Position numbers and translations under genes: made by a program. A stretch of DNA of 64,000 bases from Hysterangium stoloniferum. Its lineage: Eukaryota > Basidiomycota > Agaricomycetes > Hysterangiales > Hysterangiaceae. Location of the stretch: NCBI GenBank assembly GCA_015178975.1, contig WHVD01000042.1, positions 578,331 through 642,330 of the forward strand. Reading direction: 5' to 3'. Numbering within the stretch: position 1 is the first letter of the stretch; each line of letters opens with the position of its first letter. This document shows, one piece after another, positions 9,178-60,500 of the stretch. The notes below the pieces were generated by a model. The model did no database searches. It saw only the letters and a program-made list of their open reading frames with translations, and was not told where the DNA came from.

Positions 9178-10440
9178 TTAATCATGAAAATATATATCTA
9201 CAGTTGGTGGCATGCAACCATAACAAATAGATGTTTGATTTAGAGTGAGACATGCATGGGCATTGCACAATAGGACATCAATGCGATACATTGTTCCACA
9301 CTGTGTCCCCAATATCTTCTGCTTCACAACTGAATTGAGAAATGGCCACTCTTGAAGGATGAGGCCAAATCCATGCTTCACTGAAATGCACACCCTACCC
9401 ATTGCTGTGTTCCATGCACACTGTTCTTCAGAGAGTGGTGCAACTGCAGTGTATGAGCTCACCATTACTGGACTTGTGCCATACGCTGAATCTCCATAGA
9501 TCTGAAAATATCGGTGCTCAGGGGGGGTCATCTGGAGTCGATCCTGGTTGGATTGCCTTCTGCTCTAACATTGCTAGGAGCCCACTCTCAGCTAGGACTC
9601 CCACATCATTTTGAGAGGCACAAAATGGTCCACTGAGATGTACCATTAGCCCATTGGGGGCTACAATGCCTTGGAACTTCATGCCATGGCACTTCTTGTA
9701 GCCAGTGTACACAAGCTCCTGAAATTCACCTGGTCAACAGGTGGGACAGATTGTGCAATCAATGAAGCCGAATATTGTAGATGTGGGTGCTCCAAAGTTA
9801 TTAATAGCTTCAGCATATTCTTGAAGACGATCCAGGTTGACAACCCCTTCTGTATCCCAGTCTAGTAGATGATCCCACCAGTTGTTGAGAAATTTCGCTG
9901 TGGAGTTGATGAGATCAGAGATGACACCCTGTGACAAGTTATATTTGGCAGATAGCCCACTGGTCCTCTGGGCTACGCAATCATGCACAAATAAGTGTGA
10001 ATGCCTTGATGGCAGTGGCTTTGTTGTGGTTAGGAGTGATAAGGGGATCTGGGATCTCAAGGATTTGGCTCCATTGTATGAGCTCATCTGCTGTGAATCT
10101 ATATAAATGTTAGCAATGGTCATCAAATCAAAATATATCCATATGCATCTGAATGCCCAAAGACACCCCAACTGCCCAAGCCTGTTCAGATAATCCACAG
10201 TGATCCTCTCCCTGATCTGGCCAAGGTCGTTGCTTGGTAGTGCAGAAATGGTTGCAAGAGCTGCAACATTGGCTGTATCGTCAAGTTGGAGTTGGATGGT
10301 GGGGAACAAAATGGGTGATGCAGTGAGAGGCTGTGCTGTGCAACATTGGATAAAAACATTGGCAATAATACTGGCAATGAGGGCCTTCTGTCACATGGAG
10401 AGTGTTTTTCTCAATGGCCTTGACTGCGTGACAGACATAA
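9178..10440 (-). pseudogene. HARBI1-like DDE transposase
   Basis: Minus-strand nuclease of the PIF/Harbinger element. In order: an N-terminal helical region, the first catalytic Asp in FGFIDCT (about 9760), a conserved block YTGYKKCHGMKFQGIVAPNG (about 9690), the second Asp in YGDSAYG (about 9490) and the third acidic position in ISVKHGFG (about 9385). The third residue is Lys where the family has Glu (VEHGF), so catalysis should be lost. An in-frame TGA interrupts the chain between the first and second blocks at about 9735, and a frameshift lies near 9530. A TGA near 10395 also interrupts the N-terminus. Confidence 0.8.
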
Positions 10441-12130: not shown

Positions 12131-13770
12131 GGAAAGGACATCTGACTAGACGATGGGACGTCTATCCTAAAGAGGGGAGTAGCGACTATGCCACAGTTAA
12201 TCCGCATAATTTCAAGCCTATGTTTTCATCGGAACAACTGTCCGCATCTATCCGAGCCACTTACCTCATTCATCCAGTCTTGCAAAGTGTTATTCTTATG
12301 GATACCAAGAAATTACATCAAGATATATTATCAGCAATTCAATCAGACCCAGTCACCAAAGCACACCTCAATAACCCGTCTGACCCCGATCAACCCCGAT
12401 GGTCACTAGACTCACAAGGTTTCATTAGACTTGACAACCACATTTATGTACCGGATTCCAATAGCCTTCAGCTACGAATCCTACAACATAAACATGACCA
12501 CCCGATCTCGGGACACTTCAGCCTCAATAAGACTCTTTCACTCATTAGAAGAGAATATACATGGCCTGGCATCTGAGATTTCGTTAAGCACTATTGCAAA
12601 TCTTGTACAACGTGTTTACATTCTAAATCACAGCGACACAAACCATATGGCCTATTCAAACAACTACCAACACCAGAAAAACCCTGGAACTCAATTTCTA
12701 TGGATTTCATCGAGCACCTACCGGCATCCGAATGTCATACAGCAATCCTAGTTGTTGTGGATCGGCACTCACAAAGCAAAGTATTTTCATTCCAACATAT
12801 GACACGATAACATCTGTACAGTTAGCCGAATTATTTGTCACCCACATATTTTCCAAGCACGGCATTCCATCACATGTCACATCCAATTGCAGATCCGGGT
12901 TTGTCTCTCACTTTTTTAGGTCACTCGGAAAAGCACTAGACATGAAGTTACATTTCACTTTGGGCTGATGGCCAAACCAAACACATGAATCAAACTTTGG
13001 AACAGTACATTCGTGTGTATTGTAACTATCAACAAGATGATTGGAAATCACTACTACTGCTAGCTGAATTTGCATATAACAATGCACCAAATGCCACTAC
13101 TGGTATTTCACCTTTCTTCGCAAACAAAAGCTACAACCCCAATATCGCAATCCACCCGGAACGCGATCTCGCATCCGCCCGTGCTCAAGACTTCATTACA
13201 AACCTTGACAAGCTACATCAAGAACTTCGTAAAACTATCGCAATGGCCCAAGAACGATACCAACGGTCCACGGATAAGAATTGACTTCCACCTCCTGATT
13301 TCAAGATTGGAGACCGAGTATTCATTAAAGCTGAGTTTTTCCAAACTACTAGACCCTCTAAAAAGCTCTCTGAAACATATTTAGGTCCTTTTGAAGTTAT
13401 AGCACAAGCTGGCATGCTTTCATGGGCACTTCAGCTTCCCGACAACATGCATGCAGTGCACCTGGTATTTCACGTATCTATGTTAGAACCATGTGTTGCT
13501 AACAAAATAACGGGTCACATACAACCACCACCGCCACTTGTGATCATTGATGGAGAACCTGAATTTGAGATATCAGAGATCCTAGACTCAAAAATCAACA
13601 ATTGCCGATGCTCATGCAAATTACTTTATTTGGTTAAATGGGCTGGCTATGAAGGGACAGATGAAGAAACTTCGTGGATCCTAGCTACAGAGCTCAGTAA
13701 TGCCTCGGAAATTGTTTTAGGGTTTCACCAAGCCTATCCAAATAAACCTGGTCCTCTAAATTCTTTATAA
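12131..13770 (+). pseudogene. Element F integrase with C-terminal chromodomain
   Basis: Blocks in order: LTRRWDVYPKEG (end of RNase H), an H-x-H...C-x2-C zinc-binding domain (HDHPISGHF ... CKSCTTC, about 12490-12615), the first catalytic Asp in SMDFIEHL (about 12705), the second catalytic position in HVTSN (about 12885) and the third near GQTKHMNQT (about 12975). The second position is Asn instead of Asp and the third Lys instead of Glu; about seven residues before the third are deleted. GPFEVIAQAG follows (about 13385), then a chromodomain, EFEISEILDSKI to KWAGYEGTDEETSW (13560-13680). The chromodomain would steer insertion to methylated-histone chromatin. Inactive. Confidence 0.85.
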
Positions 13771-13859: not shown

Positions 13860-14852
13860 TTATTTAAAAGTTTCCTCTATCACCTCCCCTTCTTCTCCAG
13901 CTTCCGAGACCTCCCCCTCACTGACAGCCACCAATACCTCTTCACTGACCTTTTCCGATGCCCCAACACCAGGCCCAATTCCGTCACAACTCGACACCTC
14001 TAAATACTGCTCAAGTTGTCCTCCTAGGGACTCTATAACGCTGGTTTGTTTCTCCAGCCCGACACCCAAAAGTCGCAACTGCTCAGTCCTAATACCTTGT
14101 TGTCGCAGTGTCTCGAATCAGAACCAAGTCGTCTCCAAGAAATAAGTGTGCATGAGGCGGTTTTGCTCCTCTAATGCATCGGCCTGCCATTCTTGGTAAG
14201 ATCTGTTTCCATCGGCATCCGGGAAGACACATCCAAGTTTTTGGTTGGCACACTCTTGACAGGTGTGGCCCCGACCACTTGCTTGAGGATGGCAAGTCCG
14301 ACCCCATTTGGTGCACCGGTTGCACTTGGGGTCGTTTTTGGCCCCCGCTTTAGGGGCTTGTTTTTGTTTCTATAATCAAAAAAAATTAGAAAACTTTAAA
14401 AGTAGGAAACTGAACCCACCTTGGGGCTTGATGGCCCCGGTGCATCCTCCTCATCCTCCTCGTCCTCTTCGTCATCAGACTCCGAAGGCGTCACAGCCTT
14501 GCACTAAAGAAAAAAATCAGCAAAGGTTCGCAAAAGAAATGGGAACCCACTTACTTTTCCCTCTCGCTTTTTCTTCGCCGCCTCCTCTCGTGCCTGATCA
14601 GCCTCCCACTGCTTCTTCTTTGCAAGCACCACATCCCAGTGCTTGCGTGCAGCCTCTTCCGCTGCCAGCTTCTTCTCCTCCACCTTGATGGCCACCAGCT
14701 CCTCTTTCTCTTTCCGCTCCTCCTCCTCATGCTTTCCTCTTCTCCTCGAGAAGGTGTCAACGTTCCTGTGCACTAGGTGGTCCACTCGGGACTGACATGG
14801 GAGCAACCATCAACTGAACCGGGAATGGCTTCGACCCCGAACCTATGGTCAT
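13860..14852 (-). CDS. Antisense spliced coiled-coil / Zn2Cys6-type gene carried by element F
   Basis: Lies opposite to pol, between the chromodomain and the 3' LTR. Model: ATG at 14852; exons 14852-14555, 14503-14420 and 14369-13860; introns of 51 and 50 nt with GTAAGT...TTTAG and GTGGGT...TATAG ends. The product has a charged coiled coil (Glu/Lys/Arg-rich, with ARKHWDVVLAKKKQWEAD), an acidic run, a basic patch (KKQKQAPKAGAK), then six cysteines spaced C-x2-C-x6-C-x10-C-x2-C-x6-C, a second helical region and an acidic tail. That spacing fits the fungal Zn2Cys6 DNA-binding cluster. Damage: a one-base shift and a stop (TGA) near 14740-14760 and one TGA after the cluster at about 14138. A TATA box (14902-14909) lies 50 nt upstream. 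The equivalent gene in element 2 shares both intron positions. Function is inferred only. Confidence 0.7.
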
Positions 14853-14901
14853 GGTGGTCAAGGGGAGAGAAGTGAAAATTCAAGCGCCAGAACCCCTCAA
14901 A

Positions 14902-14909
14902 TTTTTATA
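14902..14909 (-). promoter_or_regulatory. TATA box of the antisense gene in element F
   Basis: TATAAAAA on the minus strand, 50 nt before the ATG at 14852 and 117 nt inside the 3' LTR edge. The equivalent gene in element 2 also has TATAAAAA upstream. Confidence 0.5.
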
Positions 14910-15025
14910 TGTAAAATTTTACCGAGTCACATGATGTTTTGACACACCAACCGTACCCGACAAGTTTTTACATACGGAATCTAGATTTTCAGCCTCCTTG
15001 GGATTTTGGCCAAATGGGGGGATAC

Positions 15026-15771
15026 TGTTACGACCGTGTCACAACCTGACAGTCCCCGAGGTTATCACCTCCTATCGACGATTCAAGTCATCATTCAAGT
15101 CTTCATGTCAGAAACTGTCGGTTTCCCGATGCTGATGTATGCCTTCACGGTGATCAAACTCCATTTATGCCCCCGTTGAAATATACTCGTATTATCTGGT
15201 TAAACTTTGATATGTCCCTTTTATTATGATGATCCGTTCTACTCTATGTTTCACATATGTCTATATACATATACTTGTAACCCTCGGACTATTTCCTTTT
15301 CTCGTAATTCCGCTATCGGTTATCTCATGGCCTCCAAACTAATTGTAACCTTCCCGTTCCTAGTCAAGCTTATTTGTCAATACCGTTTTCAGCTTTTCTC
15401 CTAGTTAGTATCTCCTAGGTGCCGAATACTTGTATATGAACCCATTGTAGTTGTAGTTACTAGGCAATCAGAATATCGATTCAGAATACCCTCCTATGCC
15501 TACAGAAGTCTCATACTAAGTACTCCACTATCCACCTTCGTGTGCGCTCACCCACTCTCGGCCTCCAACCCCTTGGCCCGACACTCAACTTATCCTTCAT
15601 TTCCGATCGGTAGTTTCGCCGAGAGGTATTCATTAGAACTAGTCTTCACCCACCTGAAATTTAAGGACACCCAACAGATAACTGCGAGGGCGCAGCACAT
15701 AAGCTGAAGCCAAGTCCTTCCGATCGGTCCCTGTTGGCCCACCGACATTAGTCAGTTTTCAGTTCTTAACA
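15026..15771 (+). repeat. 3' LTR of element F
   Basis: 746 bp, TGTTACGACC to TTCTTAACA, preceded by a polypurine tract and followed by GTCAG. Same family as 3701-4468 in opposite orientation, diverged by scattered substitutions, so the insertion is not recent. Confidence 0.85.
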
Positions 15772-15898
15772 GTCAGGTGCATATACAGTGGGGTCTGGGT
15801 GCTGGCAAGTTTTCTGGCTAACTGTAACCTGGTGGGTATAGAGAGTCAGGTGCATGTAGGATGGGGTCTGGAGCCTGGTGGGTTTTCCAGTCCTAACA
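15772..15898 (-). repeat. LTR of family G, 5' fragment, with target duplication of F
   Basis: Minus-strand start of a G-family LTR (TGTTAGGACTGG at 15898 downward). Its remainder is at 4474-5055. The first five bases, GTCAG, are the duplicated target of element F. Confidence 0.65.
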
Positions 15899-17168
15899 GG
15901 AGTCATCAAAGGGGTTTGGGGTGTCAGGGGCAGTGTCAAAGGTTAATTGGGAATGAGAGTTCCTGCATTGGGAGTTGCTTGTCATTCCCTCAAAGCTTCC
16001 CTTTCCAGTTTGGCCATGCTAAGAAGGTGACGCAGTTGTGGTTGGTGAAGGGAAAGTTTGACTGGGATATTTTTCTCCTGTAGGTGTCTGTCACTTTGAT
16101 CCTCATGTCTGTTGGAAAGCCTTCCAGGATCAGTGGGCGATTGAGTGAGTGGAGGAAACAAGTATTGGGGGAACTCTTGAGCTCTTGTACAAACGAGTCC
16201 ATTGTAGAAGCTGGAGATGGAGGTATTTGCATAATTTCATCATATTCATGCAGTAATTCCATCATCATTTTGTCATGTTTTTGCTGGATGTGCAGGAGTC
16301 TAGACCAAAGGCTGAAATATGTGAAAGATATATTGGGTGACCTTTCATAGAGAGAATGTTCTAGGATCTGAATGTATAGGTATTGATAGTCAACCTTGGG
16401 GACAGCATGGAGACATCTAATCAGTACATGCAAAATTTGCAATGTATCATTGTGTACATTGAGCAGGTCTACCAGTTGGATAAACAATTCATTTTTTATC
16501 ACCATTCTTCCCCTTTCCATCATGATCATCAGCTCTTCAGACCATTCAGGGATTTATTGAGTGACCTCTTCCAGAGTTCTTTATTGTGTGAATAGGGTTT
16601 GGGCCAATTAAATCCCATGATACCTACCCAACCAAATTGCAATTGTCATGTGCATGGTGGGGTATCTCATCTTGTAGTCCTGTGCAATTGCTGTAATTTC
16701 CTCCTCTGAAATCCGAGAAGCATAGTACATGTCCGACTTGTCATCAATAGGTTCATTGTAAACCAATCATCCATGGTAGGTGTGCTGAAGCATTACTTGA
16801 CATGGTGGAAATTCCAAAATCACATTGTCATTATGGGTAGGTGAAGGGTTTCTTTCCAGTGTTTTTGGTTGTTCCTGGTGTGAGCATGATCCTGACTGGG
16901 TGAGACAACTGTCAGTGGTTCAACCTGGATTTGGGGGGAACCTCCAACAGAGGCTTGTTTTTAGGAAGTCAGTGAGGACTTTCTCATTGTAACATTTCCA
17001 GGCAGTTCAAGACTAGTGGGTCTTCATCATGGGAGGGAACTAGTCAATCCCACTGAAGGTTTCACAGCCTGTTCCTGTAATCATCATGTGTAGCTAAATG
17101 TAAAAGTTTTTTCTTTTTATTAAAACATTTTCTTCATAGGAAAAGAACAGTCTGGCCCAGATCACCAT
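15899..17168 (-). pseudogene. Unknown degenerate ORF, antisense to the adjacent LTR
   Basis: The minus strand reads through about 300 residues with a few stops. Segments include YNEPIDDKSDMYYASRISEE and KMRYPTMHMTIAIWLGRYHG (about 16640-16770), then an open stretch 15990-16529 rich in Leu/His with HKHDKMMMELLHEYDEIMQ-like helices and PLILEGFPTDMRI. I do not recognise the family. The ORF lies directly inside an LTR fragment (17169-17289) that faces plus, so it has the same antisense-near-3'-LTR placement as the zinc-cluster genes, but I see no cysteine cluster in it. Confidence 0.4.
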
Positions 17169-17289
17169 TGTAAAGAGTTGTGGAAGTTCTCACTGCTCTA
17201 TATACAGAGAATATTGACTGTCTAGGTATGATACAACAATATATTGACTATTGAAGTACAATATAGAAAGTAAACTAGTTTTAGTCAAC
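17169..17289 (+). repeat. LTR fragment of family I
   Basis: Matches the start of the LTR at 36128 (AAGAGTTGT, ATATTGACTAT, GTACAATATAGAA). Truncated at 17289 where the 3' LTR of element 2 begins. Confidence 0.6.
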
Positions 17290-17859
17290 TGTTAAGTACT
17301 GTGTCGGAACTTATTCCAGAACTATCAGAAAGTCACTGGGAATTTGGAAACTATCGGATAGGGTCAGGATGTCAGCTTCAGCTTATGTGCTGCACCTTTA
17401 TGCAAACACTCGGAAGTCCTTAATTTCAAAGGTGGAACTTATGCTGGAAGATACGGATATTCAGAGTTCTGAAGATTTCTGAATATCGAGTGTACAGAAA
17501 GATGGAAGATGGAATAAGAAACTAAGTCAATAGAGAGTATTTGCAACTAATATCAGATCTAAAGTAAAGTACAAATTCACAGAAACTAATATAAGTCTTC
17601 TCATTATTGTACTACAAACTAAGACCACAATAAGATGGAAATGGAAGTATTCCAAAATGGGAATGCAATAAGATGAATTGGAGAGACATTATTCTGAAAT
17701 GGGAATATAATAAACAAATGAGTGAATGCTTGTCAATGGACAAATTACCAAATGTGGAACAAGGGAAGATTACGGAAGATGTGGTAACTATGATGTTCCA
17801 TAGTCAGAAGTTGGAAGTTGAAAGTTGGATATTGAAACATCCGAGAACGGGTTGTAACA
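17290..17859 (-). repeat. 3' LTR of element 2
   Basis: 570 bp, TGTTAAGTAC to GTTGTAACA on the plus strand. The polypurine tract CAGGGGGGTAC (minus) adjoins it at 17860-17870. The partner at 30605-30805 is truncated. It contains an orphan Harbinger end at 17533-17552. Confidence 0.8.
17533..17552 (+). repeat. Orphan copy of the PIF/Harbinger terminal repeat
   Basis: Identical to the 20-bp TIR at 5787-5806 and also preceded by TA (17531-17532). No opposite end is seen within the LTR, so it is a one-ended remnant or a captured sequence. Confidence 0.6.
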
Positions 17860-17987
17860 GTACCCCCCTGTTAGGCTGAAGTCCCATAGAGGCAATTAGG
17901 TACTGAATAGTTGAAGTGATGGTTGATTGTTATGTGTTGTGAAATTTATGCAATTCTGGAAGTGAGAGTTTTGGCTGCTGGTCTGAG

Positions 17988-17995
17988 TATAAAAA
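17988..17995 (+). promoter_or_regulatory. TATA box of the antisense gene in element 2
   Basis: TATAAAAA, about 75-120 nt before the first coding-like sequence. Same motif and relative position as at 14902-14909. Confidence 0.45.
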
Positions 17996-18039
17996 CTTCC
18001 AAATATTTGAATTAACAATTTTGTTTCTTTAACCACAAC

Positions 18040-19169
18040 TTGCATATCGATTCGTTGACTGTTATTTGCCACTACCCCAGAAGATTCAGACGCTGAAATC
18101 ACCATACTCGAAAAAATGTCAAGGTCAAAGAACTTCAACAAAAATGACAGAGGATGGAAGAGTTGAAGTGACAACAAGAGGAGGAGGGGAAAGTGTTGAT
18201 GCAAGAATTGACGGAGGCAGAAGAGGTGGAAAAGTGCAAGTTGGAGTGGGTGAAGGTGGAAAAGGAGGCATGGTTGTGGAAAATGGCAGAGGATCAGAAG
18301 TTGAAGGATGAAGTGGAGAAAAAGGAGTGGGAGGCCGAGGTGGTGGAAATGCGAGTGAAGGAGATAAGGGATGGAAAAGTAAGTCAAAACAACAATGTTC
18401 TGTGTTTCTTCCGATAACAATTGAACACAGTGAAAAGCCGTGGAGGTGGAAGTAGAGGGAGAGGCTGGGCCTTCAAGTCCTAAAGTAAGTGATTCTGTAA
18501 AAGGTCGGAAGTTAACTAATTTCTAAACAGAAACAAAAGGTCAAAGCTCCGGAATGGATGGAAATTGTCCATGACAGTCCGTGTTATTGGTGTTCGATTT
18601 GGAATTTGACTTGTTGGAAACAGAAGGTAAAATGGGGCAGAACTTGCTACCCTTGCGTGGTACTCAAGCTTCCGTGCACTCTTGCCATGAAGAGGGCTCT
18701 GAAAGGTGAGAAGGCTCAGAAGACTGATGATGTGGAAAATCCAGGAGTAGCCAAGAATACAGAGACTGAGGTACCAAATACAGATAGTTCCAATGTCAGA
18801 CTTCTCAAAGACACCGTGGATGCATTGGTGTTTATCAGGACGGAACTGACGAAGATGCGGGATGTGTTGGAGCACCATAATGAAATCCAGGAAAAAGGTT
18901 TCCAGTCATTGATCTGGAATTTCCAGAGGCAGAACAAATTCCTGGAGAAGGTAATGGTCAGCATCAGTGTTATTGCAGTTTCCGAGAGGTTTGCTGATAA
19001 GGCAAGGGATCAGCCAAATGATCTATTGGTGGAATATATGGAGAAGAGAGAGTCGGGAAAGGGGCTGGAAAGTGAAGATGATGAAGTGCAGGATATGGTG
19101 GAAAGTACAGAGATTGCGGATGATACGGGAGTTGAAGTGGACGGAGGATTTGGGTGTCAGAAACTTTAA
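18040..19169 (+). pseudogene. Antisense spliced coiled-coil / Zn2Cys6-type gene carried by element 2
   Basis: Homologous in layout to 13860-14852 and antisense to the pol of its own element. Exons end at 18378 and cover 18431-18484 and 18531-19169; introns of 52 and 46 nt have GTAAGT...CACAG and GTAAGT...AACAG. Both introns interrupt the same places as in F (after a GK pair, and between GPSSPK and KQK). A Glu/Lys-rich coiled coil precedes them. The cluster CYWC...C...C..C...C (18586-18690) keeps the exact C-x2-C-x6-C-x10-C-x2-C-x6-C spacing. A further helical region and acidic tail run open to 19169. Breaks: TGA near 18176, and TGA at the first codon after intron 1. The start is unclear because no ATG follows the TATA box at the expected place. 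Confidence 0.65.
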
Positions 19170-19362
19170 AATAGTTGCAATAATATTTTTTTTTTGACTT
19201 GCATGATTTTGAAGAATGAGTGTCAGATCGGAAGTATCAGAAACTAAACAGAAAGAGAATGGAAAAGAGTCAGAGTGATGATAAAGGTCCAGGTTTGCTT
19301 GGATGAGCTGTGTGGAAGTCAATAACAATTTCCATAGTGTGTCCAAGTTCCATGGCCAATAT

Positions 19363-21860
19363 TCATGAAGTTTCTTCGTCGGTCCCTTCATAACGTGCCC
19401 ATTTGACTAAATAGAGCAATTTACAAGTACATCGGTGATTGTCGATTTTAGAATCCAAAATCTCAGAAACTTCAAATTTGGGTTCTCCATCAATGATGAC
19501 CGGAGGGGGTGGAGGTTGAGTATGTTCTGGGATATTGTTAGGAACACAAGGTTCTAACATGGAAATGTGGAAAACAGGGTGAACTGCTCACATACTATTG
19601 GAAAGTCAGAGAGTCCATGAAAGTGAGCCAGCTTGTGCTATAATTTCAAAAGGGCCTAAGAATTTCTCAGCAAATTTTTTAGAAGGTTGGGTAGTTCGGA
19701 AGAATCGAGCTTTTACAAAAACCTGATCACCAATTTTAAAGTTAGGAGGCAGGATCCTGTTTTTGTCCATGGAATGCTGATAATGTTCCTGAGCAGAAGA
19801 AATAGCTTTCCAAAGTTCTTGATGTAACTCATCGAGGGCAGTAATAAATTCTTGAGCACAGATGGACACCAAATCTCATTTGGAATGTACTATGAGATTC
19901 AGATTATAACCATTGCTGGCGAAAAAAAGGAGAAAGGAGAGATGCCAGTAGTTGCATTCAGAGAGTTATTGTAGGCAAATTCTGCGAGTGGAAGAAGGGA
20001 TTTCCAGTTGTCCTGTTGGTAGTTGCAATAGATGCAGAGATATTGTTCCAGTGTTTGATTAACACATTCCATTTGTCCATTACCTTCTGGATGATATCCT
20101 GAGGTAAAGTGTAATTTCATTTCGAGGGCTTTTCTGAGGGCCTGGAAGAAATGGGAAAGAGCCTCAATTGGAAGTTATGTGAGATGGAATACCATGTTTG
20201 GAAAATACCTGAATAATGAAAAGTTCTGCTAATTGTAAGGATGTGATTGTATCATGAGTGGGTATGAAAATTACTTGTTTCAAGAATCGATCCACAACAA
20301 CTAGGATGGATGTAAAGCCTTTGGAAGTCAGAAGTTGTTCGATAAAATCCATGGAAATTGAGTTCCAGGGTTTTTCTGGTATCAGAAGTTGCTTGAGAAG
20401 GCTGTATGGCTTATGTCTCTGGGATTTAGAGCATAAGCAGGTGGTACATGACTTACAGAACTGGGTTACAAAATCTCAGAGGTTGGGCCAAGTATATTCT
20501 CTTCAGATTAGACCAAGAGTATTGTTAATGCTGTAATGTCTGGATATTGGATGATCGTGTTTGTACTGAAGTATGTAGAGTCGGAGATTATTGGAATCTG
20601 GAACGTAGATATGTCCATCGAGATGGATGAACCCTTGAGAGTCTTGTGACCATCAGGGTTGGTTGGGATTATCAGGAACTTCTAGGTGTGGCTTGAGGGC
20701 TGGGTCAGAAGTGAGTGCAGAAAGAATATCTTGATGTAATTGCTCAATGTCCATAATCATAATTCTACACATAATTGGATAGTAGAGGGAAGTCACTCGA
20801 ATAGATGCAGAAAGTTTCTGTGTTGTAAAAGCTGGTTTCAAGTTATGCATATTAACAAATGCATATGTAGTTACTTTCCCCCTCTTTAGGATAGATGTCC
20901 CATCATCGGGTCATGGCATCTGGTTTTCCATCAAGATGTCCAGGTTGGAAACAGATAATCATGTTGAAAGCAGAGAGAAATTTGGACTAGTGGGCTTGCT
21001 GCTGGGTCAAAGGTTTAGTGGTAGAAAAATATTTGAGATTTTTGTGATCGGTAATGACGTCAATGGGAGTTGCAGAACCTTTGAGGTAGTGCTGCCAATG
21101 TTTGAAAGCTTCAAAGATTGCCAAAAGTTCCTTATCATGAACATTGTAGTTGAGTTCAGACACTGAAAGTGTCCAAGAAAGAAATGCAACTGGATGAATT
21201 TCACCATCAGAATCTTGAATGGAAAGAATTGCAGCAATTGCATAATTGGAAGCATCGGTTTCCACAATAATCGGAACATCAGGTTTCCAATGAGAAAGAA
21301 TCGGAGCAGAAGTGAAAGCATTTTTTTAAAGTCTGGAAAGCAGAGTGGCATTTGTCGTCGAAAAACCATGGTTGAGATTTATGGGTAAGGTGAGTGAGCG
21401 GTATTGTAATATCTGAGTAGTTCCAAATAAAATGATGGTAGAAGTTTGCGAAACCTAAAAATGACTGAATGTCTTTGACTTTCCATGGTTCGGGCCAATC
21501 ATGGACAACTTGAACCTTGGTTTTGTCCAGATGGAGACCATCGGGTCCAATAATGAAACCTAAATATTCAATAGAATCCATGTCAAAATAGCATTTTTTA
21601 CCATTGGTGAAAAGACCATTTTTTTGGAGTCTTTGGAAAACTTCATGGACTTGCTCATCATGAAGAGTGGGATCCTCGGAAAATACCAAAATGACATCCA
21701 AATAGACTATAACACATACATCAAGCATGTTGGAAAATATATCATTACCAAAATGTTGGAAAGCAGAAGGGGTGTTGGTAAGGCTGAATGGCATAACCAA
21801 CCATTCAAGGATCCATAGCGAGTTCGAAAAGCAGTTTGCCATTCATCACCCTCAGCAATT
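19363..21860 (-). pseudogene. Element 2 pol, C-terminal part: RT, RNase H, integrase, chromodomain
   Basis: From high coordinate: RT palm after IAEGDEW (21855) with MPFSLTNTPSAFQ and the active-site region VIVYLDVILVF (DV in place of DD, about 21710), the connection GFIIGPDGLHLDK, RNase H (METDASNYAIAAIL, about 21265; [13 protein letters not shown], about 21050), integrase (MDFIEQL, about 20350; HITSN then a stop, about 20175; NGQMECVNQTLEQY, about 20060), GPFEIIAQAGSLSW (about 19620) and a chromodomain to KWARYEGTDEETS (19363-19560). The second integrase Asp is Asn, exactly as in F. Multiple frameshifts. Inactive. Confidence 0.8.
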
Positions 21861-21865
21861 CAGAC

Positions 21866-23991
21866 TGTTATGTATTTCTAAGTTTTTTCCAATTTTTAAA
21901 CAATTTCCCCTAACAAATTGTGAAAACAAATATTCAAATGTAATTATATTGCGACGATAAAATTGTATAATATTGGTTTGATTTATCCTGAATTTATACA
22001 ATTTATTTTGTATTTTTATCTAATACATTGAGCAAGTTATTGAATTTCTACTTTTAATTCTTTTTTGATTAATATGTCGGCGACTCAGCGCTTATTCACA
22101 ATGCGCGAGTAATCATGTGATATTCACATGACATTTCAAACTCTGACGCCAACAAAACGCCATGCGAAATAATCGCGCATAATCAAGGTAATATATATAT
22201 TTATATTATTATAATAAAATATTATATTTATAACTAACTAAAAATAAATATAATAAATATAATAATATAAAGCCGGCCACCTGTGTTTATTATACGGCAC
22301 GTGGGAAACTCCTCACAACAAGTGACAGTTGTCACAACAAGTGACAGTTGTCACAACAAGTGACAGTTGTCACAACAAGTGACAGTTGTCACAACAAGTG
22401 ACAGTTGTCACAACAAGTGACAGTTGTCACAACAAGTGACAGTTGTCACAAGGGCGCGTGACGGTCAGAGAGGCACGTGACTGTCACAGAGGTGTGCGAT
22501 GGTCACAGAAGGACATGACTGTCACAAAGGCGCGCGATGGTCACAGAGGTGCACAACAGTCACAGAGGCGCACGATGGTCACAGAGGCACATGACTGTCA
22601 CAATGTGTGACAGTCACAAGACGTGAAAGGTGTCATGTGCACGCACAGGCGCGAGAGCATTATATATGCTACTACAGCAAAAACCGGAAATTCCCTGGAA
22701 TATTCCAGTGGCTTCCAAAGGAATAGTAGCTAATAGGTACTAATAATAGATAGAATATTGTAGAATATTCTATAAGATTCCAGAAAGTTCTATTGTGCCA
22801 AGAATATTCTAGTGTCTTAGGAGTAGTTAGAACTTCTCACAATACTCTAGAAAATTCTAGAAAATTCTAAATGACATCATTCCTTCCAGAATGACATCAT
22901 TCAATCTTCTAGAATCTTCTAAATGTCTCAGACTAAAATGTATATAAGGAGCTCAGCTCCAGCCTTGAATATAATCAATAAATCAATCATATCATCACAT
23001 CAACCCACCATATCTGTGTGTGTCACTGCAGCAAGCAGGCTACTCCACCCCTATCTGGGCAGTTGGACATCTAATTCCACCTCTATCTGAGCTGTTGGAA
23101 ACCCTTGCCACCTCTATCAGAGTTGTTGGCCCAATCAGATCCCTTGCCACCTCAATCTGAGCTGTTGACTGATCTGCTGTTCCCCTTGTCACCTCAATCT
23201 GAGTTGTTGACTTTTGTTCCCCCTTGCCACTTCTTAACTGAATAGTTGGCTATCTTTTATATATCATTTCCACCTCAGTTAAAGTTGTTGGTTATCAACT
23301 AATAATATATAAATAATCTCATACTATAGTCATCTCTTAATTGAGTACTGATTATTAGTTTTCCTTACATTGTTATTTGTAGTTTAAGACTTCAGTCACC
23401 TCTAGTTGAGTAATTTGACTGTTTATTGCATTACAAATAATCCTTGTTCTATTGTTCATTCATTGTGAATCAGTAAAGCATATTCACATAAACAAATACT
23501 GAGAATATCCTTGCAAGATCCTAAGACTACATTAAGATCCTGATAAGTTAATATCACAGTAGACCTTGTAGGTTAGTGTAAATAAAGCATATATTAGCCA
23601 AATAGTGTTTTATTCTATATCTAATCTTTTGACCCGTTTATAAATATTTTTACTGTTTGACAAATAGTATAAAGTATATATAAACTAGCTAGTATTGAAG
23701 TTAAATCTAGCTTCAGAATCAGTAAATTGTTATTCTTATTTTAATAGTTGTTGTCACAGAAAAAGAACAAGCTTGCACAAGCAGCTCTCAAAACCTTCTT
23801 TGCGAAGTTGGGTGCATATATTTAAGTAAACTCTTGACTTCAGGGGTTCTAAGTCTACTAAGGCTGCCACTGATTAATATCAAATACTTAAATTATTTTA
23901 CCTTGCAGTGAATTGAGTATTTGCACACTTTGATAGAGCATTGGACTCCTTTTTCCAGAAAATAATATTAAAATAAGCCTAATACATTACA
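21866..23991 (+). mobile_element. Solo LTR A (2126 bp)
   Basis: TGTTATGTATTTCTAAG to AATACATTACA. The left flank is CAGAC (21861-21865) and the right flank TACCC (23992-23996); they do not match each other but match, inverted, the flanks of LTR B. A TATATAAGG box near 22940 faces plus. It holds a 19-bp minisatellite and a CCACCTCTATCTGAG-type repeat series (about 23045-23290). Same family as C (28222-29701). Confidence 0.85.
22316..22450. repeat. 19-bp minisatellite, about seven units
   Basis: Perfect copies of CACAACAAGTGACAGTTGT. Each unit contains the palindromic-like GTGACAGTTGTCAC. It is followed by a looser GTGAC/GTCAC series to about 22620. Confidence 0.85.
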
Positions 23992-28221: not shown

Positions 28222-29701
28222 TGTTATGTATTTTTAGGTTTTTCCAATTTTTAACCAATCTCCCCCTAAACAAATTGATAAAAACATGTTTAAATGTACT
28301 TATATTGCAACGAAATTATTGTACAATAGTCTCTTGAAATTAACTTGATCTTTACAATTTATTTCATATTTCTATCATTTATTTTGGGAGAGTTATTGAA
28401 TTTCTACTGTTTATTCTTTTTTATCTAAATATCTTCTAAGTCGGCCATCTGGCACTTATTGCGCAAAGCGCGGGAAAATTCATCACAACAGGTGACATTC
28501 GTCACAGCAAGTGAGATTCGTCACAACAAGTGACCAGTGTCACAACAAGTGACCAGTGTCACAACAAGTGACCAGTGTCACAACAAGTGACTGTTGTCAC
28601 AAAATATGATGACTTGTCACAAACGCGACTCAGCTGTCACAAAACAGCTGAATAATAATAATGTCACACATATGGAAACATTGTGACATGCGTGGGAATA
28701 TTATGTAATCAGCGTGTGCGCATGAAATCAGCAACTTCGCAACGCGCGAGAACATTACATCAGCATATATGCTACAATGGAAAGTAGTAGAAACTCCTGG
28801 AATATTCCAGCAGATTCCAGGTAAAATAGCTAGAACCTTCTCCCATGTCTTAGATTTTACTGTATATAAGGAGCTCTGCTCCACCACTGAAATATAACTC
28901 ATTTTAACTCATTTTAACCATCTTAACCAGCCACATCAGTGTGCCACTGCAGCAGCAGTTATATTCCACCCCTAATTGGGCTGTTGGACAAATACATACA
29001 AACACTTAGTCACCTCTAGTTGAGCTATTGGTTATCAATCAATAAATAAATAAATAAACATATCAACTGTTCCCTTTTTGCCACCTCTTAGTTGAGTAGC
29101 TGGCTATCCTTTATTACTAATCCACCTCTAGTAATAAATATATTAGGTTATATTGAGATTAGGAATATATATATTCTAATTTCTACCCGGTTTTTGGCAT
29201 AAATAAATACTGAGAATATTCTTGCAGAATCCTTAAGACTACATTAAGATCCTGATAAGTTAGTATCACAGTAGACCCTGTAGGTTAGTGTAAATAAAGC
29301 ATATATTAGCCAAATAGTGTTTTATTCTATATCTAATCTTTTGACCTGTTTATTAATATTTTTACTGTTTGATAAATAGTATAAAATATATATAAACTAG
29401 CTAGAATTGAAGTCAAATCTAGTTTCAGAATCAGTGAATTGTTATTCATATTTTAGTAGTGTTTTAACAGAAAAAGAACAAGCTTGCACAAGCAGCTCTC
29501 AAAACCTTCTTTGCGAAGTAGGGTGCATATATTGAAGTAAACTCTTGACTTCAGGGGTTCTAAGTCTATTTAGGCTGCCACTGATTAATATCAAATACTT
29601 AAATTATTTTACCTTGCAGTGAATTGAGTATTTGCACATTTTGATAGAGCATTGGACTCCTTTTTCGGAAAATAGTATTAAAATAAGGCTAATACATCAC
29701 A
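28222..29701 (+). mobile_element. Solo LTR C (1480 bp)
   Basis: TGTTATGTATTTTTAGG to AATACATCACA, with a perfect 5-bp duplication CCAGT (28217-28221, 29702-29706). It shares the A-family body, including the TATATAAGGAGCTC promoter region (about 28863) and a minisatellite with CACAACAAGTGACCAGTGT units (about 28490-28610). It is inserted in LTR G. Confidence 0.9.
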
Positions 29702-31209: not shown

Positions 31210-32780
31210 CAGTGGGGGACAAAACCGTTCCAATGATTTTTTATATGTCACAGAATGTTGAATAACTCAATGAGTACTTGCCCAATTGACCTGAAATTTT
31301 TAATTTAGGTAGTCATATATGTTGGCTATATACCCTAAAATTCTATGACATAAGCATTATTTGTCATCAAACTATAAATCAAATACTAATGCAATCTCAT
31401 TGGAACAGTTTTGTCCTTGTCACATGATTAGCACATAACCTTATTGATTATCCACAAATAAATGCAAATAAAATCATGTGACCTGTTCAAATTGTGTATA
31501 TACTGTATACAACTGTTCACTTCTCCAAGTGATAGCATCCCAACAACTCATCAGTTTACATCATGAGAGCTCTCACTCCTGCTCAACTTGATCATGTTCT
31601 TACTCTACTTGACAAGGGCAAGTCTGCACATGAAGTAGCTTCTACCATTGGTCATTCTGTCTCTACTATATCCAGAATTTGCTCTAAAGATTCTTCCTCC
31701 CTCTCCAAAGCAGCTGAAGGTCATCCACGCAAACCTTCCCTCTCTGATACCCATTACATCATCCAACAAATCACTTCCCAGAAGATTGACCATGCCACTC
31801 AGGCCTCTAAAGTCCTACAATATATTAATGGGGAGTCTATCTCTGCAAGAAAAATTTGTAGAAAACTCAAGAAAACTGGAATGAAGGCTGTGGTGAAGAA
31901 GAAAAGGCCTAAACTCACAAAAAGGCAGAGAAGGGAGAGGCTGGACTTTGCATTGGCACACAAGAACTGGTCTCTGGAGGACTGGAAGAGGGTTGTTTGG
32001 TCAGATGAGGCTAAAATCAATCATTTGGGGTCAGATGGGAGGAAGTGGGTGTGGAAAAAAGCAGGAGAGGGGCTCAGTGATAGGCTGGTTCAGGGTACAG
32101 TCAAGTTTGGAGGGGGGAATCTGATGTTGTGGGGTTGTATGTTCTGGGAAGGACCAGGATATGCCACCAAGATTGATGGGAGGATGGATGCTGAACTTCA
32201 AGAATCTCTCAAGCATTACAAAAAGAAGACTGGGGATATAGTCTTTCAGCAAGACAATGATCCCAAACACAAGAGCAAGAAGGCCACCAATTGGCTTAAT
32301 GGCAGTGATTTTGATGTCATGATATGGCCCCCTCAGTCTGCTTATCTTAATCCAATTGAACACCTTTGGCATTACCTCAAGAAGAGGCTACTGGAGTATG
32401 AAGTGGAGCCTAGGAGTATTCAGGAGTTATGGGAAAGGGTCCAGATAGAATGGGACAGGATTCCTGCTTCTATTTGTCAGAATTTGATAGAGAGTATGCC
32501 TAGAAGGATTGCAGCTGTTTTGGATGCCAAGGGGGGTTACACCAAGTACTAGATTATATGATTTGTATTGGATTATATACCAGGGACAAAACTGTTCCAA
32601 TGAGATTGCATTAGTATTTGATTTATAGTTTGATGACAAATAATGCTGATGTCATAGAATTCTTACGGTATATAGCCAACATATATGAATATCTAAATTA
32701 AAAATTTGGTCAAGTACTCACTGAGTTATTCAACATTCTTTGACATATAAAAAATCATTGGAATGGTTTGTCCCCCACTG
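31210..32780 (+). mobile_element. Tc1/mariner element, apparently complete
   Basis: 1571 bp, TA duplication at 31208-31209 and 32781-32782. Long terminal inverted repeats of about 200 bp (31210-31416 and 32584-32780). Outer ends begin CAGTGGGGGACAAA; the inner end of each TIR carries the same GGACAAAAC-GTTCCAATGA motif in opposite orientation. One uninterrupted transposase ORF. It sits in AT-rich sequence and looks the youngest DNA transposon in the window. Confidence 0.95.
31563..32552 (+). CDS. Tc1/mariner DD34E transposase (329 aa)
   Basis: Cut-and-paste transposase. N-terminal paired-like helix-turn-helix region (LTPAQLDHVLTLLDKG ... HSVSTISRIC, residues about 4-45) and a second HTH (ARKICRKLKKTGMKAVVKKK, about 95-115). 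Catalytic domain: Asp in VWSDEAKIN (about 148), Asp in FQQDNDPKH (about 230) and Glu in NPIEHLWHYLKKR, with 34 residues between the last two, which gives DD34E. GGGNLMLWGC is the expected glycine-rich strand. Length is normal for the superfamily and no break is seen, so activity is plausible. The ATG lies 146 nt inside the left TIR and the stop 32 nt before the right TIR. Confidence 0.95.
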   Translation: MRALTPAQLDHVLTLLDKGKSAHEVASTIGHSVSTISRICSKDSSSLSKAAEGHPRKPSLSDTHYIIQQITSQKIDHATQASKVLQYINGESISARKICRKLKKTGMKAVVKKKRPKLTKRQRRERLDFALAHKNWSLEDWKRVVWSDEAKINHLGSDGRKWVWKKAGEGLSDRLVQGTVKFGGGNLMLWGCMFWEGPGYATKIDGRMDAELQESLKHYKKKTGDIVFQQDNDPKHKSKKATNWLNGSDFDVMIWPPQSAYLNPIEHLWHYLKKRLLEYEVEPRSIQELWERVQIEWDRIPASICQNLIESMPRRIAAVLDAKGGYTKY

Positions 32781-38230: not shown

Positions 38231-38520
38231 CAATCCATATGGACTATATCCCTGCTACTCAACTCTTACTCAACTCTTACTCAACTCTTAATATTTCTTT
38301 ATCTCTTAGAGTATTCACTCTGAGTCAAACTGTAAGGTCAATTCCTTTAATAGTCATCTTAGATAACTATTCAATAGTCAGATGACTAATCCTTTCTTGT
38401 ACTGAACTTTGACAGTCAATACACCTCTCAACTTGTATTGTACTTTGACAGTCAATACAAGTTTTCTACCTAGAATAGCTATACTATCCATACATAGAAT
38501 TTCAGAACTTGAAAGACTCT

Positions 38521-41500
38521 TCACACCATGGCACTCAGTGTGTCTGGGTGTTCAGTTCCTAGGAGCTGCTCACTGGCCTTCAGCACCTGGACCTCTAGTT
38601 GTTCTGCATCAGTCCATCTACCCAGTTGAAAATATGTGGCAGCCAAGTTGGCCATGGCCCTTAGTGTGTCTGGGTGTTCAGTCCCTAGGAGCTGCTCACT
38701 GGCCTTCAGCACCTGGACCTCTAGTTGTTCTGCATCAGTCCATCTACCCAGCTGACGATATGTGATAGCCAAGTTGGCCATGGCCCTCAGTGTGTCTGGG
38801 TGTTCAGTCCCTAGGAGCTGCTCACTGGCCTTCAGCACCTGGACCCGTAGTTGTTCTGCATCAGTCCATCTACCCAGCTCATGATATGTGGTAGCCAAGT
38901 TGGCCATGGCCCTCAGTGTGTCTGGGTGTTCAGTCCCTAGGAGTTGCTCACTGGCCTTCAGCACCTGGACCTCTAGTTGTTCTGCATCAGTCCATCTACC
39001 CAGCTGGCAATATGTGGTAGCCAAGTTGGCCATGGCACTCAGTGTGTCTGGGTGTTCAGTCCCTAGGAGCTGCTCACTGGCCTTCAGCACCTGGACCCGT
39101 AGTTGTTCTGCATCAGTCCATCTACCCAGCTGACGGTATGTGGTAGCCAAGTTGGCCATGGCCCTCAGTGTGTCTGGGTGTTCAGTCCCTAGGAGTTGCT
39201 CACTGGCCTTCAGCACCTGGACCTCTAGTTGTTCTGCATCAGTCCATCTACCCAGCTGACGGTATGTGGTAGCCAAGTTGGCCATGGCCCTCAGTGTGTC
39301 TGGGTGTTCAGTCCCTAGGAGCTGCTCACTGGCCTTCAGCACCTGGACCTCTAGTTGTTCTGCATCAGTCCATCTACCCAGCTGGCAATATGTGGTAGCC
39401 AAGTTGGCCATGGCCCTCAGTGTGTCTGGGTGTTCAGTCCCTAGGAGCTGCTCACTGGCCTTCAGCACCTGGACCTCTAGTTGTTCTGCATCAGTCCATC
39501 TACCCAGCTGACGATATGTGATAGCCAAGTTAGCCATGGCCCTCAGTGTGTCTGGGTGTTCAGTCCCTAGGAGCTGCTCAATGGCCTTCAGCACCTGGAC
39601 CCCTAGTTGTTCTGCATCAGTCCATCTACCCAGCTGACGATATGTGATAGCCAAGTTGGCCATGGCCCTCAGTGTGTCTGGGTGTTCAGTCCCTAGGAGC
39701 TGCTCACTGGCCTTCAGCACCTGGACCCGTAGTTGTTCTGCATCAGTCCATCTACCCAGCTCATGATATGTGGTAGCCAAGGTGGCCATGGCCCTTAGTG
39801 TGTCTGGGTGTTCAGTCCCTAGGAGCTGCTCACTGGCCTTCAGCACCTGGACCTCTAGTTGTTCTGCATCAGTCCATCTACCCAGTTGAACATATGTGGC
39901 AGCCAAGTTGGCCATGGCCCTCAGTGTGTCTGGGTGTTCAGTCCCTAGGAGCTGCTCACTGGCCTTCAGCACCTGGACCCGTAGTTGTTCTGCATCAGTC
40001 CATCTACCCAGCTGACGGTATGTGGTAGCCAAGTTGGCCATGGCCCTCAGTGTGTCTGGGTGTTCAGTCCCTAGGAGTTGCTCACTGGCCTTCAGCACCT
40101 GGACCTCTAGTTGTTCTGCATCAGTCCATCTACCCAGCTGACGGTATGTGGTAGCCAAGTTGGCCATGGCCCTCAGTGTGTCTGGGTGTTCAGTCCCTAG
40201 GAGTTGCTCACTGGCCTTCAGCACCTGGACCTCTAGTTGTTCTGCATCAATCCATCTACCCAGCTGGCAATATGTGGTAGCCAAGTTGGCCATGGCCCTC
40301 AGTGTGTCTGGGTGTTCAGTCCCTAGGAGCTGCTCACTGGCCTTCAGCACCTGGACCTCTAGTTGTTCTGCATCAGTCCATCTACCCAGCTGACGATATG
40401 TGATAGCCAAGTTAGCCATGGCCCTCAGTGTGTCTGGGTGTTCAGTCCCTAGGAGCTGCTCACTGGCCTTCAGAACCTGGACCTCTAGTTGTTCTGCATC
40501 AGTCCATCTACCCAGCTGACGATATGTGATAGCCAAGTTAGCCATGGCCCTCAGTGTGTCTGGGTGTTCAGTCCCTAGGAGCTGCTCAATGGCCTTCAGC
40601 ACCTGGACCCCTAGTTGTTCTGCATCAGTCCATCTACCCAGCTGACGATATGTGATAGCCAAGTTGGCCATGGCCCTCAGTGTGTCTGGGTGTTCAGTCC
40701 CTAGGAGCTGCTCACTGGCCTTCAGCACCTGGACCCGTAGTTGTTCTGCATCAGTCCATCTACCCAGCTGATGGTATGTGGTAGCCAAGTTGGCCATGGC
40801 ACTCAGTGTGTCTGGGTGTTCAGTCCCTAGGAGCTGCTCCCTGGCCTTCAGCACCTGGACCCGTAGTTGTTCTGCATCGGTCCATCTACCCAGCTGACAA
40901 TATGTGGTAGCCAAGTTGGCCATGGTCCTCAGTGTGTCTGGGTGTTCAGTCCCTAGGAGCTGCTCAATGGCCTTCAGCACCTGGACTCCTAGTTGTTCTG
41001 CATCAGTCCATCTACCCAGCTGACAATATGTGATAGCCAAGTTGGCCATGGCCCTCAGTGTGTCTGGGTGTTCAGTCCCTAGGAGCTGCTCACTGGCCTT
41101 CAGCACCTGGACCCCTTGTTGTTCTGCATCAGTCCATCTACCCAGCTGATGATATGTGATAGCCAGGTTAGCCATGGCACTCAGTGTGTCTGGGTGTTCA
41201 GTCCCTAGGAGCTGCTCACTGGCCTTCAGCACCTGGACCTGTAGTTGTTCTGCATCAGTCCATCTACCCAGCTGACAATATGTGGTAGCCAAGTTGGCCA
41301 TGGCCTTCAGTGTGTCTGGGTGTTCAGTCCCTAGGAGCTGCTCCCTGGCCTTCAGCACCTGGACCCGTAGTTGTTCTGCATCAGTCCATCTACCCAGCTG
41401 ACAATATGTGGTAGCCAAGTTGGCCATGGCCCTCAGTGTGTCTGGGTGTTCAGTCCCTAGGAGCTGCTCAATGGCCTTCAGCACCTGGACCCCTAGTTGT

Positions 41501-60000: not shown

Positions 60001-60500
60001 AAGGCTAAGGCTTTTTCATTGTTTTTGAATATATCTTTAAAGAGTTTTTCTTCTTCGGGCCATAAGAATCCATCTTGATTAATCTTGAATACTGTAAGTC
60101 GGTCTTCTGTGAGTTTTGAAGTTGGAGAGAAGTCGGGAGGATGAGGATTTAAAGGAGGAAGAGATAAGAGAGGATCTTCAGGAAATCGTCTAATTACACG
60201 AGCATCTTCAGGAAACGTAGCAGGAACTGATTTGACTTTGAGATGTACTGGTTTATAAAGGTAATTTTGATCTGTTTTTGGTCTCGGAGTTGAATCCGAA
60301 TTTTCTTTGTTGTGTTTAAAAGAGAAATCTTCATTAGCTTCGGTTGACGAAGGAGCTGGTTTGGCTGGATAAATAGAAGTCGAGTTGGAATGAGAATGAT
60401 TATAAGGCATAGAGATTTGGGTATCTTCTAGTTTATCGTCATTGCGGACAGTGCTTGAGTCTAAAATTGGTCGTCCTGGGTTTCTTCCTCGGTCAGACAT
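57087..60500 (-). CDS. Element J pol: RT, RNase H, integrase (1137 aa)
   Basis: Intact polyprotein. N-terminal 200 residues are a low-complexity linker. RT: VKKKDGKLRHIIDLRTLNS, LPQGYTNSVPEFQ, active site VGVMIDDLGI (IDD). RNase H: EVIFAVDTSVIAIGFVIYQ, then EVDASYIKDML and HRAPDGLSR. Integrase: zinc domain HDHLGHRGAYS...CHPCQ, catalytic Asp in VYLDIMVMP, Asp in EIVTDNGAEVK and Glu in NGVVERGHFTIREAL; GPF module YLGPFKVEFKTKGG. It ends in an acidic tail (DEDGNEEDSDSEE) and shows no chromodomain. It begins 40 nt before the end of the gag-protease frame, in the -1 frame. The ATG at 60500 is the first in that frame near the overlap. Confidence 0.9.
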   Translation of the reverse strand: MSDRGRNPGRPILDSSTVRNDDKLEDTQISMPYNHSHSNSTSIYPAKPAPSSTEANEDFSFKHNKENSDSTPRPKTDQNYLYKPVHLKVKSVPATFPEDARVIRRFPEDPLLSLPPLNPHPPDFSPTSKLTEDRLTVFKINQDGFLWPEEEKLFKDIFKNNEKALAFDESERGTLRSDYFSDYIIPVVEHTPWVNKPIPIPPALLPAVLTNIKAKLASGVFEPSQGSYRSPMFFVKKKDGKLRHIIDLRTLNSVTIRDAGLPPIIDSFLEPFAACSVYSSFDLLSGYDARMIHPKSRDLTSFQTPLGLLRYRVLPQGYTNSVPEFQNCITFILQDEMPQHVGVMIDDLGIKGPPTRYQKPDGSYETHPTNPGIRRFIWEHAEVVNRVLHRLQHAGATISPRKSQVSKPEIILAGQKLTYAGRLPDDSRVSKILKWPPLKTVRQVREFLGLCGTLRIWIKSYSEIARPLTELTRKDTEFIWDARRQDAMDKLKHAIANSPALIPIDYDSGREVIFAVDTSVIAIGFVIYQIDSQGQRRPVRFGSLPINDRESRYGQAKLELYGMYRALRHCRLYITGVKNLIIEVDASYIKDMLNNPDLQPNATLNRWIAGILLFDFTLVHVPATRHRAPDGLSRRERAEDDTDEEQEDEEDDDWLREVTRVNSLTEQEICEVSTNISKEGWLVNTIGNSRHSDELLRQIYDFLNTLKLPPFSTPTKRQSFLNKVRFYYLQDGKMWKRHTPRPLQVILNNSHRNKILKLAHDHLGHRGAYSTARNIAIRFWWPNYVEDVKQWVRSCHPCQIRSTFKIHLPITISIPTTLFTKVYLDIMVMPRAQGYRYIVAARDDLSGAAEERKLRKASAKAVSQFIFEELICRYGGIMEIVTDNGAEVKGATEELIRRYGISQIRISPYNSQANGVVERGHFTIREALVKACDGNISKWPDLVHHTFFADRVTVRRATGFSPYYLLYGTDPILPLDLFEATYLVSGFEKNMTTAELLALRIRQLAKMPEDVDKARQRLITSRLRSKEEFERRYAKRLWRGSYNPGDLVLVRNTRIEKELDRKTKPRYLGPFKVEFKTKGGSYILSELDGTISKRGVAAFRLLPYYSRDNAPIPPEKLPVDAISDEDGNEEDSDSEEI

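Follow-up and report, generated by a model that had tools for sequence, protein, structure and literature searches.

Here, we describe an antisense accessory gene of gypsy retrotransposons in the basidiomycete Hysterangium stoloniferum, recognised in a 64,000-nucleotide stretch of contig WHVD01000042.1 (hereafter, the window). Each of two neighbouring gypsy copies in the window, element F and element 2, features a three-exon gene on its opposite strand, with pol on one side and the 3' long terminal repeat (LTR) on the other. These elements carry the gene as a regular component, and it is most likely a selected protein gene requiring antisense splicing. With regard to its function, we put the probability at about 0.5 that the product, a protein of approximately 295 amino acids (aa), is the element's own nuclear regulator, which would tune sense transcription in the manner of HBZ of human T-cell leukaemia virus type 1 (HTLV-1). 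Gene structure, abundance, linkage and constraint are the directly observed part of this reading.

Layout of the antisense gene in the two window elements

The first-pass annotation of the window had described two gypsy elements, each with an opposite-strand gene just inside the 3' LTR that has its own TATAAAAA box, two short GT-AG introns whose positions correspond, and six identically spaced cysteines. All of this was borne out by a base-by-base check of both window copies, which covered where the genes lie, their TATAAAAA boxes and splice dinucleotides, the terminal stop codons and the spacing of the cysteines. The introns measure 46-52 nucleotides (nt), and the cysteine spacing is 2-6-10-2-6 in both copies.

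Element F (element on the - strand)
18116 (ATG) to 19169 (TAA), + strand: antisense gene, checked by base
17988..17995, + strand: TATAAAAA box of the gene, between the 3' LTR and the ATG, checked by base
18116..18378, + strand: exon 1, Glu/Lys-rich, with a frameshift and stops in this copy
18379..18430, + strand: intron 1, 52 nt, GT-AG
18431..18484, + strand: exon 2, acidic, with SSPK at its end and TGA first at the standard acceptor
18485..18530, + strand: intron 2, 46 nt, GT-AG
18531..19169, + strand: exon 3, a 212-aa open frame with the six-cysteine cluster, then helix-like and acidic parts
18582..18677, + strand: six-cysteine cluster, checked by base
17288..17859, - strand: 3' LTR, ends approximate
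19270..19755, - strand: C-terminal end of pol, convergent with the antisense gene

Element 2
14852 (ATG) to 13860 (TAA), - strand: antisense gene, checked by base
14902..14909, - strand: TATAAAAA box of the gene
14555..14852, - strand: exon 1, with a frameshift and a stop in this copy
14504..14554, - strand: intron 1, 51 nt, GT-AG
14420..14503, - strand: exon 2
14370..14419, - strand: intron 2, 50 nt, GT-AG
13860..14369, - strand: exon 3, interrupted in frame by TGA after 83 codons
14229..14324, - strand: six-cysteine cluster, checked by base
13300..13770, + strand: pol end, SH3_Tf2-1 (PF24626) and chromodomain-like (PF00385)
15026..15771, + strand: 3' LTR, with CCGATCGG at 15603 and 15720

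The pol end of element 2, the one scored against these families, matches SH3_Tf2-1 with 63.8 bits and comes just short of the chromodomain cut-off with 24.1 of 25.1 bits (E 3.4e-5), and the pol end of element F is a relative of this SH3/chromodomain-like end. The gene had been called antisense to pol, which holds as far as the strand is concerned, but the two do not overlap and instead lie tail to tail, converging across a gap of approximately 90-100 bp. Since they do not overlap, constraint on pol cannot account for constraint on the antisense gene.

As judged by eye, a short N-terminus leads into a charged stretch (in one copy, Glu, Asp, Lys and Arg make up 60% of it, counted from residue 29) and a basic run encoded where exons 1 and 2 meet. 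Behind these come an acidic linker with SSPK at its end, a second basic run and the cluster of six cysteines; a helix-like stretch and an acidic tail complete the protein. The coiled coil, the helices further on and the acidic tail ascribed to the window genes are likewise by-eye assessments.

Read from the first ATG, both window copies are broken. Exon 1 of element F has a one-base length difference to most of its relatives as well as stops, and under a looser rule allowing a downstream ATG and another acceptor this copy is open for 285 aa, while the element 2 copy has the exon 1 lesions listed above and, in exon 3, a TGA as codon 84. CpG decay accounts for much of the damage to the antisense gene: in exon 3 of the E type, to which element 2 belongs, 22/22 stops among 19 protein-sampled copies and 14/16 among 14 pol-side copies (both samples are described below) are TGA at alignment columns that hold CGN elsewhere, and in the F type 6/13 stops stand at columns with CGN in other copies. 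The window as a whole is depleted in CpG (observed/expected 0.43).

Abundance, intact copies and constraint in the host genome

The gene had been reported from two elements. Both carry it, but far more copies exist: a search of the 111 Mb genome with the two exon 3 proteins as queries gave at least 150 scored matches per type (717 and 537 candidates), in total at least 300 scored copies, and there are at least three types (F, E and D). From these matches we sampled 60 loci (30 F, 30 E), among them the two window copies as well as L037, which is nearly identical to L036. L037 was left out of selection ratios, column conservation and between-type divergence and kept in the LTR/pol linkage, frame-stop, splice-site, TATA and open-reading counts; L054 and L060 are absent from the E upstream alignment. 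In 56/60 of these protein-sampled loci the opposite strand carries a pol end downstream of the gene, which is the position and orientation of the plant genes known as aORF-3R, and in 55/60 an LTR lies upstream in the expected orientation. Measured from the exon 3 match, the median distance is 709 bp to the pol end (56 loci) and 691 bp to the LTR (51 loci).

Because these 60 loci were picked by protein similarity, a second sampling was made from the pol end. At least part of the gene was found beside 48/51 pol ends fetched from the top of longer match lists (15/15 by eye, 18/18 and 15/18 by tblastn), and beside 43/46 after removal of five that had been chosen or cut via a known antisense match. 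The first pol-side set (n=15) consisted of L069-L071, picked for a known open antisense exon, and twelve others picked since they were without an antisense match among the matches listed. The second (n=18) was taken from upper list rows and included L090 and L091, which were cut at the known match, and L101, where the match covers 27 residues only. The third (n=18) was taken from upper list rows of F-type look and cut at a fixed offset. At the three pol ends without the gene other sequence is present, in one case another gypsy pol end (by eye). The third type, D, was seen in the set of 15 and is E-like, the two types sharing 64% identity over exon 3.

Two further observations concern the make-up of individual elements. 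G000 and L011 combine an E-type LTR with a gene and pol end of the F type, which suggests exchange between element types, and in L071 (1-470) the start of the gene is replaced by gag-like sequence in antisense direction, by eye a rearranged element.

Intact homologues in other elements, a check proposed together with the original description, were found. Twelve copies of the pol-side set of 15 include exon 3, and when spliced at the standard places 7/12 of them read open from ATG to stop over 251-298 aa (5/9 without the three copies pre-chosen for an antisense match), one of the seven beginning at a downstream ATG and another having a shifted tail. Among the protein-sampled copies 9/60 read through by the same rule, several via downstream ATGs or a longer intron 1. 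The mean number of stops in the gene frame is 0.40 (F, n=30) and 1.6 (E, n=30) compared with 2.4-16.2 and 4.1-7.0, respectively, in the other five frames, a comparison that favours the gene frame as the loci were found by similarity in it.

The splice sites are kept along with the frame, GT/AG being present at 115/120 F-type sites (30 copies) and 104/112 E-type sites (28 of 30 copies). In the F type, the only one for which this comparison was computed, the introns have diverged by 0.103 and 0.061 transversions per site, against 0.039 and 0.015 for exons 1 and 2. An LTR element replicates via RNA, so that introns in sense orientation would tend to be lost. The present introns survive retrotransposition because they are antisense to the genomic RNA and hence not spliced from it, and their retention with working ends argues for a spliced antisense transcript. 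Additionally, TATAAA occurs at -620..-460 of the exon 3 match in 48/60 copies, where 5.7 are expected from base shuffles. The distance from TATA to ATG is 56-57 bp in all 22 E copies where the two could be located, and has a median of 118 bp in 14 F copies.

For estimating selection, transversions at second codon positions were divided by those at fourfold sites, transitions being set aside because CpG decay swamps them; ranges come from a codon bootstrap that takes no account of relatedness among copies. The ratio is 0.231 (0.138-0.425) for 29 protein-sampled F copies and 0.139 (0.068-0.241) for the 19/30 protein-sampled E copies with exon 3 in frame. In the pol-side samples it is 0.241 (0.104-0.487) for E (14/18 copies with long matches) and 0.470 (0.268-0.831) for F (14/18 copies), the latter becoming 0.278 (0.136-0.536) without one frameshifted copy. 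D against E gives 0.257 after correction, essentially a single contrast. The pol end itself has ratios of 0.114 (15 F loci) and 0.093 (16 E loci), with 0.192 and 0.121 for exon 3 of the same loci. Overall, the antisense gene is constrained, though less than pol, and the suggestion of selection on the protein, for which a check based on the ratio of nonsynonymous to synonymous change (dN/dS) had been proposed, is upheld by the 0.14-0.47 range of the four samples.

In the wrong frames and on the other strand of the gene the ratios are 0.548-8.57. This bias of codon positions towards the gene frame, together with the retention of splice sites and cysteines, speaks against the idea that the antisense RNA alone acts, through double-stranded RNA or transcriptional interference, and that its coding capacity is incidental. 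Antisense transcripts, some of them non-coding, are described for other retroelements and retroviruses in passages of PMC7264820 and PMC10186651, and we regard such an RNA-only role here as very improbable.

Beyond elements F and 2, cluster profiles run across the window gave no match to the antisense gene, including in a different gypsy-like element at 57087-62494 (-), which has by eye a 1137-aa pol-like and a 677-aa gag-like frame. A candidate third window copy at 9349-9444 (-), with a tblastn E of 0.001, was rejected, as it lies by eye in a transposase-like frame and nothing but the two genes scored above threshold with the family profiles. A 19-nt tandem repeat rich in GTCAC/GTGAC forms arrays between the two LTR-like repeats of element F, at 22246-22595 and 28435-28647. 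Elsewhere, the window includes a 329-aa open frame at 31563-32552 that by eye has a Tc1/mariner-type transposase look, and approximately 31 tandem copies of a 126-nt repeat at 38400-42353 (42 aa, TPR-like by eye), mostly 94-97% identical to a reference copy and residing within a 1657-aa open frame at 38521-43494 (-) that is NB-ARC/TPR-like by eye.

Nature of the six-cysteine cluster

Fungal Zn2Cys6 clusters follow the spacing C-x2-C-x6-C-x5-12-C-x2-C-x6-8-C, and the cysteine spacing of the window copies falls within this range (PF00172). The six positions are near-invariant, e.g. in 19, 18, 19, 19, 19 and 19 of 19 E-type copies. Between types they stand out, all six being among the 22 invariant columns of alignment A1. 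The E and F types are homologous, as seen in reciprocal profile matches in the window (E 9.2e-5 and 2.7e-5) and in their coinciding introns. Aligned with hhalign to host Zn2Cys6 domains, the E/D-type profile places the six cysteines in register with a probability of 77%, and none of 200 cysteine-preserving shuffles scored as well (0/200), the inputs being small, namely five hand-picked E/D-type rows and four host domains. The latter are the 4/8 fetched loci with all six cysteines in view, from 42 matches in the genome. An earlier, smaller test with eight host rows and eight shuffles (74% against at most 62%) is superseded by this one. Rows of alignments A1 and A2 and of the family profiles were hand-picked from less decayed copies, and two rows of A2, which was used for the PDB cluster search only, differ from their loci by one residue each.

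Among the likenesses to fungal Zn2Cys6 (Gal4-type) factors are thus the cysteine spacing and the register of the E type with four host domains, as well as a helix-like stretch after the cluster and, by eye, an aromatic residue two places past the last cysteine in E and D copies and in host domains. Unlike in those factors, the cluster stands in the middle of the protein behind a long charged stretch, scores below the Pfam cut-off and in the F type is recognisable by its cysteines alone. The earlier assignment to Zn2Cys6 is therefore upheld in part, by the spacing and by the likeness of the E type to host domains in these small alignments, but not for the F type, which does no better than shuffles, nor by the Pfam threshold. 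For the E and D clusters, a divergent zinc cluster appears the likeliest identity.

The resemblance between E-type and host zinc clusters, and the presence of introns as expected in captured genomic DNA, would also suit a captured host Zn2Cys6 gene that the element carries along without making use of it. Against this, F, E and D, at least three types that have diverged, share the gene together with its intron positions, and it is under constraint; we find this explanation barely credible.

A more specific proposal is that the protein is a spliced antisense Zn2Cys6-type transcription factor of fungal chromodomain-type elements that recognises CGG-type sites in its own LTRs, which we consider possible, if rather doubtful. 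The LTR of element 2 has two CCGATCGG sites, a number reached post hoc in 1/5000 first-order simulations. The sites are exact in 4/15 and 7/14 of the aligned E LTRs, and in most other E copies they are by eye altered by C-to-T or G-to-A only. As a post hoc candidate, CCGATCGG may be a target of the antisense protein, and we offer it as a lead only.

Several results weigh against a DNA-binding regulator under selection. Copies picked by protein similarity are biased towards conservation, and seven mostly young E copies gave a ratio of 0.93, a value that is uninformative given its few events (58 and 29 in 21 pairs). Within a type the cysteines have no special prominence, since 37-48% of the other columns are at least as conserved as the cysteine columns. 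The gathering score of Pfam Zn_clus (PF00172), 21 bits, was reached by no protein scanned, the best scores being 15.7 bits for an element 2 fragment and 11.9 for the D type, with none for the window F protein; as the scores are below the cut-off throughout, the antisense protein is not filed as a member of PF00172. The F type has no likeness to host domains beyond its cysteines, 87/200 shuffles scoring as well. PDB sequence searches returned no significant match. The cluster profile run against PDB had no Zn2Cys6 chain among the matches listed, and a longer profile retrieved LEU3 and LAC9 only at E 0.96-8.8. Two AlphaFold2 models, from alignments of 1 and 2 rows, are of low confidence, with mean predicted local distance difference test (pLDDT) values of 48 and 53, and do not help with the fold. 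Finally, the CCGATCGG sites were spotted after the fact, and the LTR of the window F element is without them.

Possible roles, known relatives and implications

In the reading that we prefer, the gene would be an accessory gene of a group of Ty3/gypsy elements whose pol ends in a chromodomain-like, Tf2-like part. A TATA promoter of its own, located just inside the 3' LTR, would drive its transcription toward pol. The antisense mRNA would lose its two introns of approximately 50 nt, and the protein, with a nuclear-signal-like basic run formed across the exon 1/2 junction, would enter the nucleus. There it would bind metal and DNA, perhaps as a coiled-coil dimer and probably at the element's LTRs or the antisense promoter, and would tune sense transcription as HBZ does for HTLV-1. 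The TATA box, the nuclear-signal-like run, the cluster, the helix-like stretches and the acidic tail all point to a nuclear regulator.

Part of the same evidence could be expected of an accessory replication factor that aids nuclear entry of the cDNA, packaging or the choice of integration site, and not transcription. The gene is constrained and present in nearly all sampled copies, its nuclear-signal-like basic run (by eye) would serve such a factor, and a passage of PMC7264820 proposes this role for plant antisense accessory proteins. Its own TATA motif, however, suggests expression separate from gag-pol, and the zinc-cluster likeness of the E type points to DNA recognition, and we see a replication role as possible but less likely than regulation.

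The F and E types differ at 75% of residues over the first 80 codons of exon 3 and at 25% at the pol end (51 loci). The fast divergence of the cluster region may follow either the element's own LTR, which differs between types, or a host opponent. It is of the kind expected of a protein in host conflict, and CpG decay is visible in the elements, in line with the second option of the first-pass annotation, in which the protein blocks a host chromatin or methylation factor and thereby antagonises silencing. Co-change with the element's own LTR would also fit the divergence, and no known antagonist family was present among the Pfam matches of the proteins scanned, so that we hold silencing antagonism to be unlikely. 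On balance, LTR self-regulation is favoured over both a replication role and a silencing antagonist.

Antisense accessory genes as a kind are known. In plants, aORF-3R of Ty3/gypsy elements include gene23 of Grande, that of RIRE2 and TRP28 of Retand, with functions described as undetermined in passages of PMC7264820 and PMC11963269. Like the gene described here, they are antisense, lie between pol and the 3' LTR and occur in most copies (PMC7264820, in part). According to the same two sources, as far as the relevant passages go, Grande has its own upstream promoter and a nuclear protein, and DNA binding is predicted for the Retand protein. They differ in host kingdom and element lineage, and the domain of TRP28 is PF04195; the word 'intron' does not occur in PMC11963269, which treats plant antisense open reading frames (ORFs). 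In fungi, the gypsy element Boty of Botrytis cinerea has an antisense additional gene, brtn (PMC7264820, in part; Zhao et al. 2011, by its title in PMC8365987), which is alike in being an antisense extra gene of a fungal gypsy element and unlike in its ascomycete host.

Among retroviruses, HBZ of HTLV-1 is an antisense product with a spliced form, a nuclear bZIP-type regulator that lowers HTLV-1 expression, and APH-3/4 inhibit LTR activity (passages of PMC10186651). HBZ and APH-2/3/4 share with the present gene the antisense position and the spliced form that is predicted for it (PMC10186651, in part), and it is by analogy with them that a regulator role would apply here. HBZ differs in being a retroviral bZIP protein driven from within the 3' LTR, and no sequence relation is claimed.

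A full-text literature search, which covered few subscription papers, returned no paper that we recognised as describing this gene, and a term search finds no 'antisense' in a survey of fungal LTR elements (PMC3248453). In a survey of fungal chromoviruses, a figure legend names an 'add. ORF' of unknown function (PMC2864245, in part), which may be an earlier sighting of the gene. Searches of viral contigs (493 pattern matches) and prokaryote genomes (596) gave no relative of it. The kind of gene is thus familiar, and its spliced, zinc-cluster-like form in chromodomain-type elements looks new.

Plant antisense accessory genes have long been known without an assigned function (PMC7264820, in part), and the cysteine-cluster motif, introns and copy number make function testable in the present elements, which have conserved introns that only antisense splicing can use. 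Some genes listed as 'zinc cluster' or hypothetical in fungal annotations could, in turn, be transposon genes. If the proposed LTR self-regulation is true, these elements would be retroelements with their own sequence-specific regulator, its introns preserved since they are antisense to the genomic RNA, and self-control of the HBZ kind would have arisen separately in fungal elements.

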